Assembly (NCBI GenBank): GCA_025964325.1 | Contig: JAOPZA010000091.1 | Coordinates: forward strand, 1-55,395 | Origin: Conexibacter sp. | GTDB taxonomy: Bacteria; Actinomycetota; Thermoleophilia; Solirubrobacterales; Solirubrobacteraceae | Direction of reading: 5' to 3' | DNA length: 55,395 nt | Part shown: in pieces, positions 43,357-45,420 of the stretch | Position numbering within the stretch: the stretch's first letter is position 1 | How the letters are laid out: the number at the start of each line of letters is the position of its first letter | The notes under the pieces: model-generated | What the model saw: only the letters and a program-made list of their open reading frames with translations | What the model was told of the DNA's origin: nothing | Databases searched by the model: none | Position numbers and translations under genes: made by a program

Positions 43357-43443
43357 GCACCGGGGACGGACACCCACACGACGTTCACGCCGCCGTCACG
43401 GGGAGGTAACAGCGTGTGGCCGTGCGCCCGAGATGGTCGGGCC

Positions 43444-44535
43444 ATGCGCAGACTCCTGATTCCCACACTCGCCGCGCTGCTCGCCGCGGCACTCACGGCC
43501 GGCTTCGCGATGGCCAACCGCCACGACGGACCCCGCGGCGGCGGTGACGGCCGCGGCGACAGCCGCCACCAGGCCTACGCGATCGGGCTGTGGGGCGACG
43601 CGCCCTACTCCGACACGCAGGCGACCGTCGGCGTGCCGAACCTGATCGCCGACATGAACAGCCAGTCGCTCGCGTTCACCGCCCACGACGGCGACCTCAA
43701 GAGCGGCTCGAGCCAGTGCACCGACGCCGTCTACACGCAGGCACTCGCGTTCCTCAACTCGCTCGAGGCACCCGCCGTCTTCACCCCCGGCGACAACGAC
43801 TGGACCGACTGCGACCGCGGCCCCTACAACTCGCTCGAGCGGCTCGACCACGAGCGCCAGCTGCTCTTCAACAGCTCCTCCACGCTCGGACAGCACCGCC
43901 TGCGCCAGGAGGTCCAGCAGACCCCGAGATGCCTCGGCGTGAGCGGCGCCGTGCCGTGCGTGGAGAACCGCCGCTGGACCGTCGGCGGCGTCACCTACGC
44001 GACGCTCAACATCCAGGGCTCCTGCAACAACCTCTGCGACACCGCTCCCGATCCGGCCGAGTACGCCGCGCGCAACCAGGCCGACATCGCCTGGATGCAG
44101 CAGACCTTCGACGCAGCGAAGCACGACGGGTCCGCCGCGGTGATGTTCATCTCGCAGGCCGATCCCGGCTGGGACGGCTCCGACGCGACGCGCGCGCCGA
44201 CGCGCGATCCGAGAACGCTGGTGGAGAGCGACGGCCAGCCCGACGGCTACCACGACTTCCTCAGCGCACTGCGCGACCAGACGGTCGCGTTCCGCAAGCC
44301 GGTCGCGTACGTGAACGGCGACTCGCACTACCTCCGCATCGACAAGCCGTTCCAGAACGCGCAGGGCCAGCGGCTCGAGAACTTCACCCGCGTCGAGACG
44401 TTCGGCGATCACCAGGAGAACGGCGACAACGACGTCCACTGGCTGAAGGTCTCGGTCGACCCGAACAGCCGCGAGGTGTTCGCCTACCAGCCGCAGCTCG
44501 TCCCCGCCAACCGCACGGCCGTGCCCGCGCAGTAG
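43444..44535 (+). CDS. Secreted metallophosphoesterase-like protein
   Basis: Exported protein of 363 residues. The N-terminus MRRLLIPTLAALLAAALTAG is a signal peptide. The mature part has GLWGDAPYS, FTAHDGDLKSGSSQC, and FTPGDNDWTDC, matching the metal-ligand pattern of calcineurin-like phosphoesterases (GDND with Asp/Asn ligands). VNGDSHYLRIDKPF near the end supplies the usual His ligand. The start is set by the signal peptide; an upstream ATG at 43414 gives an unnatural N-terminus. It probably cleaves a phosphoester outside the cell. A 15-bp hairpin follows the stop. Confidence 0.78.
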   Translation: MRRLLIPTLAALLAAALTAGFAMANRHDGPRGGGDGRGDSRHQAYAIGLWGDAPYSDTQATVGVPNLIADMNSQSLAFTAHDGDLKSGSSQCTDAVYTQALAFLNSLEAPAVFTPGDNDWTDCDRGPYNSLERLDHERQLLFNSSSTLGQHRLRQEVQQTPRCLGVSGAVPCVENRRWTVGGVTYATLNIQGSCNNLCDTAPDPAEYAARNQADIAWMQQTFDAAKHDGSAAVMFISQADPGWDGSDATRAPTRDPRTLVESDGQPDGYHDFLSALRDQTVAFRKPVAYVNGDSHYLRIDKPFQNAQGQRLENFTRVETFGDHQENGDNDVHWLKVSVDPNSREVFAYQPQLVPANRTAVPAQ

Positions 44536-44543
44536 CCCACGCA

Positions 44544-44578
44544 CGACCGAGGCCCTCCATGCCGGAGGGCCTCGGTCG
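44544..44578 (+). terminator. Perfect 15-bp stem-loop terminator
   Basis: CGACCGAGGCCCTCC (44544-44558), loop ATGCC, then GGAGGGCCTCGGTCG (44564-44578). It begins 8 bp after the phosphoesterase stop. It overlaps the leader region before the acylphosphatase fusion and argues against its ATG at 44584. Confidence 0.8.
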
Positions 44579-44661: not shown

Positions 44662-45420
44662 GTGGCTGAGCACGGGAGCGTGACCGCGACCGCGATCCGC
44701 GCCGCCGTGCGGGGCGAGGTGCAGGGCGTCGGGTTTCGCGACGCGACGGTCCGGCGGGCGCGCGCGCTCGCGCTGACGGGATGGGTGCGCAACGGCGCGG
44801 ACGGCAGCGTGGAGGTTCACGCCGAGGGTCCCGAGCCGGCGGTCGACGCGCTCGTCGCCTTCCTGCACGACGGGCCGCAGCCGGCACGAGTCACGGCGGT
44901 CGCGATCGAACGGGTCGGGATCGAGGGCCACGAGCAGTTCGCGATCCGGGGTCTCAGCGCCGGGGTCTTCGTCGTCCAGGAGCACGTGGCGACCGCGCAC
45001 CATTTCGACCTGCGCCTGGAGGTCGACGGGGTCATGCGCTCGTGGGCGATCCCGAAGGGGCCCTCGCTCGACCCGGCGGTCAAGCGCCTGGCCGTCGAGG
45101 TCGACGATCACGAGACGGCGCACAACACGTTCGAGGGGGCGCTCGGAGCAGGCCGCGTGATCGTCTGGGATCACGGGACGTACGAGCAAGGCGGACGCGT
45201 TGCCTGGCCGGAGGCGCTGAGCCGCGGCCATGCGGTCTTCGTCCTCCATGGCGAGAAGCTGCACGGCGGCTTCGCCCTGCAGCGCACCCGAGCCGGACCG
45301 AAGGCGCAGTGGCTGCTGATCAAGCGCCGCGACGAGCAGGCGCGCCCCGGCTCGGACGTCGTGGCCGAGCACCCGCGCTCGGTTCTCAGCGGCCGCACAA
45401 TCGACGAGATCCACGCATGA
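44662..45420 (+). CDS. Acylphosphatase-LigD 3'-phosphoesterase fusion protein
   Basis: Two-domain protein of about 252 residues from GTG 44662 (ATG 44584 also in frame). The N-terminal ~80 residues are an acylphosphatase with VRGEVQGVGFRDATVRRA and GWVRNGADGSVEVHAEG, keeping the catalytic Arg and Asn. The C-terminal ~150 residues match the 3'-phosphoesterase module of bacterial LigD: FVVQEHVATAHHFDLRLEVDG with the metal-binding His/His/Asp and Arg, WAIPKGPSLDP, then VDDHETAHNTFEG, and VIVWDHGTYE. The second motif has His where LigD has Tyr (DHPxxY). LigD PE domains remove 3'-phosphate and ribonucleotide ends at DNA breaks. No Ku or LigD lies nearby. I do not know this fusion from literature. 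Confidence 0.75.
   Translation: MAEHGSVTATAIRAAVRGEVQGVGFRDATVRRARALALTGWVRNGADGSVEVHAEGPEPAVDALVAFLHDGPQPARVTAVAIERVGIEGHEQFAIRGLSAGVFVVQEHVATAHHFDLRLEVDGVMRSWAIPKGPSLDPAVKRLAVEVDDHETAHNTFEGALGAGRVIVWDHGTYEQGGRVAWPEALSRGHAVFVLHGEKLHGGFALQRTRAGPKAQWLLIKRRDEQARPGSDVVAEHPRSVLSGRTIDEIHA

Follow-up and report, generated by a model that had tools for sequence, protein, structure and literature searches.

A gene of Conexibacter sp. encodes an acylphosphatase fused to a LigD-type 3'-phosphoesterase (PE), an architecture that is lineage-wide and apparently undescribed. We consider it rather probable that, in this protein family, two separable enzymes sit on a common body, which has a further non-catalytic function, probably binding. 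The gene lies in the window, the whole stretch of 55,395 nucleotides that was analysed, where we located the following features:

44662..45420, + strand: acylphosphatase-PE fusion gene, a single uninterrupted reading frame from a GTG start to the stop codon, 252 aa (ORF and Pfam matches)
GTG 44680 or ATG 44584, + strand: alternative starts of the fusion gene
44686..44952, + strand: acylphosphatase half, residues 9-97 (PF00708, Foldseek, residue table)
44737-44739 and 44791-44793, + strand: codons of Arg26 and Asn44, respectively (residue table)
44923..44952, + strand: junction EGHEQFAIRG, residues 88-97, near-invariant at any catalytic state
44965..45417, + strand: LigD-type 3'-phosphoesterase half, residues 102-252 (PF13298, TIGR02777, Foldseek 3n9b)
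44983..45015, + strand: predicted Mn/phosphate site His108/His114/Asp116/Arg118, equivalent to P. aeruginosa His42/His48/Asp50/Arg52 (alignment to 3n9b/2lj6, residue table)
45109..45123, + strand: His150 (equivalent to His84) to His154 (Tyr88 position, now His) (alignment, residue table)
45139..45156, + strand: shortened-loop site, canonical IPxGxYGAG, here EG-ALGAG (alignment, comparison with canonical PEs)
45181..45342, + strand: C-block YEQGGRVAWPEALSRGHAVFVLHGEKLHGGFALQRT...WLLIKRRDEQA, residues 174-227, conserved in live- and dead-PE members

Homologues of the fusion begin 4-13 residues ahead of the conserved AIRA strand, which bears on the choice of start. Using a Pfam profile search, we observed matches to PF00708 (Acylphosphatase) over residues 13-95 (E=8.6e-23, 80.9 bits for a cut-off of 22.5) and to PF13298 (LigD_N) over residues 106-208 (E=3.3e-33, 114.5 bits for a cut-off of 31.1), both in one frame without a stop, and TIGR02777, the model of the LigD PE domain, scored 148.6 bits for a cut-off of 144. 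The nearest solved structures by sequence search were the P. aeruginosa PE 3N9B and acylphosphatases. In the AlphaFold model (mean pLDDT 86, pTM 0.64) both folds are visible and linker residues 88-96 are of low confidence; Foldseek matched the acylphosphatase half to 1w2i and other solved acylphosphatases and the PE half to 3n9b, and no solved chain among its matches spanned both halves. A preliminary description, made from the window, had already read an acylphosphatase joined to a LigD-type PE at these positions, and the reading frame with its two Pfam matches bears this out. The artefact against which it had cautioned was checked: the fusion is real, since homologues in 79 genomes rule out both an artefact and a chance reading frame.

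As presented in the residue table, the acylphosphatase half keeps the catalytic Arg26 and Asn44. The PE half keeps the equivalents of P. aeruginosa Gln40, His42, His48, Asp50, Arg52, Ser61 and His84, and with them the metal ligands (His42, His48, Asp50) and the phosphate ligands (Arg52, His84) by which membership was judged. The Tyr88 position is occupied by His154, in a motif that reads DHETAH, the Pro of DHPxxY being changed as well. Both early statements, that most catalytic residues are kept in the two domains and that the Tyr of DHPxxY is His, were thus correct. His occupies the Tyr88 position in 78% of the family members with live PE residues, and the change, as judged from the alignment, is typical of the family and not peculiar to the window copy. 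The N-terminal segment with Arg14, Asp15 and Glu21 is absent, the acylphosphatase standing in place of that disordered segment, and Glu82, a variable position in the family, is Asp in the window protein, which thus lacks the set linked to 3'-phosphatase activity; the PE loop, by alignment and comparison, is about 5 residues shorter than the canonical IPxGxYGAG loop. Residue 15 of the P. aeruginosa PE, printed as Arg in the review text, is taken here to be Asp. In the P. aeruginosa PE, His42, His48 and Asp50 are metal ligands, Arg52, His84 and Tyr88 are phosphate ligands, and Gln40 and Ser61 are structural; Arg14, residue 15, Glu21 and Glu82 are needed for 3'-phosphatase activity and not for ribonucleoside removal, the Tyr88 mutant of LigD is inactive, and a flexible, perhaps capping, loop has been described (PMC8656161).

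From these residues, the acylphosphatase half would probably hydrolyse small acyl phosphates, the VQGVGFR loop with Arg26 holding the phosphate and Asn44 placing the water. In the PE half, a Mn-dependent site for 3'-end hydrolysis has probably survived, in a pocket remodelled by the Tyr88-to-His change, the shortened loop, the missing Arg14/Asp15/Glu21 segment and the variable Glu82. By analogy with P. aeruginosa mutants, we expect this half either to be a poorer 3'-phosphatase than 3'-ribonuclease or to have a changed specificity, and it could well be active in end processing, as a hydrolase with altered specificity.

We found the fusion, spanning both domains, in 79 Solirubrobacterales genomes (the source soil bacterium and 78 relatives), with one copy per genome. 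Named records such as Solirubrobacter deserti CPCC 204708 are among them, so the fusion is not confined to metagenome bins. The wider search across Actinobacteria, which the preliminary description had proposed, gave no fusion outside Solirubrobacterales in samples of 399 class and 296 phylum genomes, each sample including some genomes of the order; the single apparent spanning match (G263) is a plain LigD PE. That the fusion had seemed unfamiliar agrees with a literature search that covered a minority of subscription journals and found no paper containing both "acylphosphatase" and "LigD". At one locus (L068, G187:C20) the fusion gene carries in-frame TAG codons, one of them where the VQGVGFR loop has Gln21, reflecting either sequencing error or an early pseudogene.

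The state of each site was then compared across the family, the acylphosphatase being scored by its catalytic Arg and Asn and the PE by five PE residues, so that "lost" is a reading of residues. The fused acylphosphatase was intact in 47 of the 79 members and lost in 32, and the PE was intact in 64 and lost in 15. Both sites were intact in 39 members, including the window protein; 25 kept the PE only, 8 the acylphosphatase only, and 7 neither. On the maximum-likelihood tree, at least seven changes of acylphosphatase state and at least three of PE state were counted. Because either site can be lost without the other, the comparison indicates that the acylphosphatase and PE reactions are not coupled. 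Loss of LigD was considered as a cause of PE loss and gave a mixed picture, several PE-dead genomes having LigD.

Stand-alone acylphosphatases were told from HypF by reading most loci (long or ambiguous frames and many short ones) and by assigning the unread loci on length, long frames to HypF and short ones to stand-alone enzymes; the acylphosphatase locus of G067 is HypF, and that genome was tallied as without a stand-alone enzyme. A stand-alone enzyme was present in 1 of 47 genomes with an intact fused site compared with 29 of 32 with a lost one (Fisher 4e-17), and in 1 of 27 compared with 22 of 22 among genomes at least 90% complete (p=4.6e-13), counts that overstate the evidence because the genomes are related and not independent. 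Only 3-4 independent pairs were well supported, and every informative one agrees (p=0.25, too few for significance). The three lost-class genomes without a stand-alone enzyme are 73-89% complete assemblies. The sole intact-class genome that has one (G071) keeps the Arg and Asn with a phosphate loop changed to NGADF, so the cut between intact and lost is not sharp. As site loss accompanies a stand-alone acylphosphatase in the same genome, the association, which gives no order of events, says that the fused half would serve as an ordinary soluble acylphosphatase, become redundant once a stand-alone enzyme is present, and then decay. In the source genome the only other acylphosphatase domain is within HypF. 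Since intact fused sites nearly always occur without a stand-alone enzyme and lost sites nearly always with one, the fused half is probably the only general acylphosphatase of this cell. At another locus (L156, G172:C4:97500-100500), a fusion gene with a degenerate acylphosphatase is followed, about 30 bp downstream, by a stand-alone acylphosphatase gene (97-aa frame) on the opposite strand.

Conservation extends well beyond the active sites. Members with a lost acylphosphatase site have a degraded VQGVGFR loop, with gaps in nearly half of them, and no Asn44, yet they keep GWVR, HAEG and EGHEQFAIRG at about 80-100%. In the PE half, the block YEQGGRV.WPEA..RGHAVFVLHG…GGFALQR…WLLIKRRD is nearly invariant even with both sites gone, and PE-dead members, whose metal ligands are scrambled, conserve the C-block as well as PE-live members do. 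Eight of its residues (Glu175, Gln176, Gly178, Arg179, Trp182, Pro183, Arg188 and Gln207) reach 95-100% whether the PE is live or dead, and no more than 62% in the canonical PEs compared, a set of only 16 sequences. Pairwise dN and dS were estimated with NG86, a simple method that was applied here to divergent sequences and short regions. They were 0.59/0.61 for the catalytic part, 0.09/0.89 for the junction and 0.18/0.56 for the C-block in PE-dead members, and 0.43/0.71, 0.10/0.47 and 0.19/0.61, respectively, in both-dead members; the PE catalytic part is thus near-neutral in dead members, unlike the junction and the C-block, and the both-dead pattern is alike but less extreme for the catalytic part. 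The reading frame is still open in the seven both-dead members. An overlapping gene behind the C-block conservation was ruled out, synonymous divergence there being near that of other regions. The acylphosphatase sheet has the strand order 4-1-3-2-5. From this order, GWVR, HAEG and the junction strand may lie side by side at one sheet edge and so form one surface.

Two acylphosphatase strands (GWVR and HAEG), the junction EGHEQFAIRG and, from the PE barrel, the C-block make up the constrained body, whose constraint could partly reflect fold stability. Because this body is under purifying selection where both sites are gone, the comparison supports the existence of a third, non-catalytic role of the family, in which the body would most likely bind a partner or nucleic acid. 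We are evenly divided on a stronger form of this reading, in which the selected core is the non-catalytic composite body with its binding function, and both enzyme sites are optional, lost singly or jointly, so that a double pseudoenzyme persists under purifying selection.

On contig C219, the source genome (4.34 Mb, 96.65% complete) encodes a canonical LigD of 894 aa with PE, ligase and polymerase domains; three Ku matches fall on contigs C142 and C135. The preliminary description had reported no Ku/LigD genes, which holds within the window and fails genome-wide; the lack of NHEJ partners that it implied is wrong for this genome. Two of the Ku matches, on a contig other than that of the third (C142), adjoin on the same strand (L177, G000:C135:1-7500) and may mark a second NHEJ cluster. 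In the LigD of NHEJ, the PE is joined to ligase and polymerase domains, whereas the window protein has the acylphosphatase and PE only. With such partners in the cell, the fusion could be a stand-alone 3'-end processor working with Ku and LigD, the acylphosphatase being a passenger. We regard this as unlikely, although the canonical PE metal and phosphate residues are present in 64/79 members and the PE superfamily belongs to DNA repair (PMC8656161). Ku was found in 76 of 79 fusion genomes compared with 95 of 153 other genomes of the order, a strong co-occurrence statistically, though genome size confounds it, small genomes lacking both Ku and the fusion. Moreover, neither Ku nor LigD lies in the window, beyond close relatives no neighbour genes were common to the fusion loci in the flanks compared (1.5 kb at many loci, about 4 kb at the rest), the Tyr88 on which the P. 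aeruginosa enzyme depends has been replaced, and PE-dead members too occur in Ku-positive genomes.

A neutral gene fusion, in which unrelated domains were joined by chance and the body is kept just for folding of the active half, appears still less probable. Both domains are ordinary superfamily members and the halves decay separately, but the open frames of the both-dead members, with junction and C-block constrained, and the family-specific nature of the conserved positions, which are not general positions of the PE or acylphosphatase fold, argue against it. A coupled enzyme, both sites working on a shared substrate, for instance an acyl-phosphate or the acylated 3' nucleic-acid end suggested in the preliminary description, is very improbable: the sites share a single polypeptide and both sets are intact in the 39 members noted above, but the others have one set or none, acylphosphatase loss is accompanied by a stand-alone enzyme encoded at a separate locus, which cannot be channelled, and no rigid double site is predicted, given the low-confidence linker and the pTM.

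The family can be compared with known systems. With the LigD PE domain and stand-alone archaeal PEs (3N9B, 5DMP, 3P43, 3P4H), the fusion PE has in common the barrel fold and the Gln40 to His84 set; it differs in the remodelled pocket, in its own C-block and in a site that is dead in 15 members. With acylphosphatases (EC 3.6.1.7, e.g. P. horikoshii 1W2I), the acylphosphatase half shares the fold, the VQGVGFR loop with its Arg and the Asn of GWVRN, but it is not free-standing, its C-terminal strand runs into the PE through EGHEQFAIRG, and its site is degraded in 32 members. HypF, found separately in the source genome, is likewise a larger protein with an N-terminal acylphosphatase(-like) domain, but goes on to CxxC zinc-finger and carbamoyl-transfer domains, whereas the partner here is a PE. 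In the fusion, acylphosphatase, an enzyme whose physiological role is still debated, has a constant partner drawn from a DNA-repair superfamily. In culturable Solirubrobacter, the clean see-saw between the fused enzyme and the stand-alone one opens the role of acylphosphatase activity to genetic testing, and the both-dead members, whose body is invariant, present a non-catalytic function of a PE-type barrel in naturally dissected form.

Upstream of the fusion, an ORF at 43414-44535 (+ strand) gave no Pfam match even up to E 1; it resembles a secreted metallophosphatase, with a signal-like start and GDAPY and GDND motifs. Between this gene and the fusion, at about 44547-44575, a perfect hairpin, GAGGCCCTCC-ATGCC-GGAGGGCCTC, was seen by eye, which has no T run and is terminator-like.
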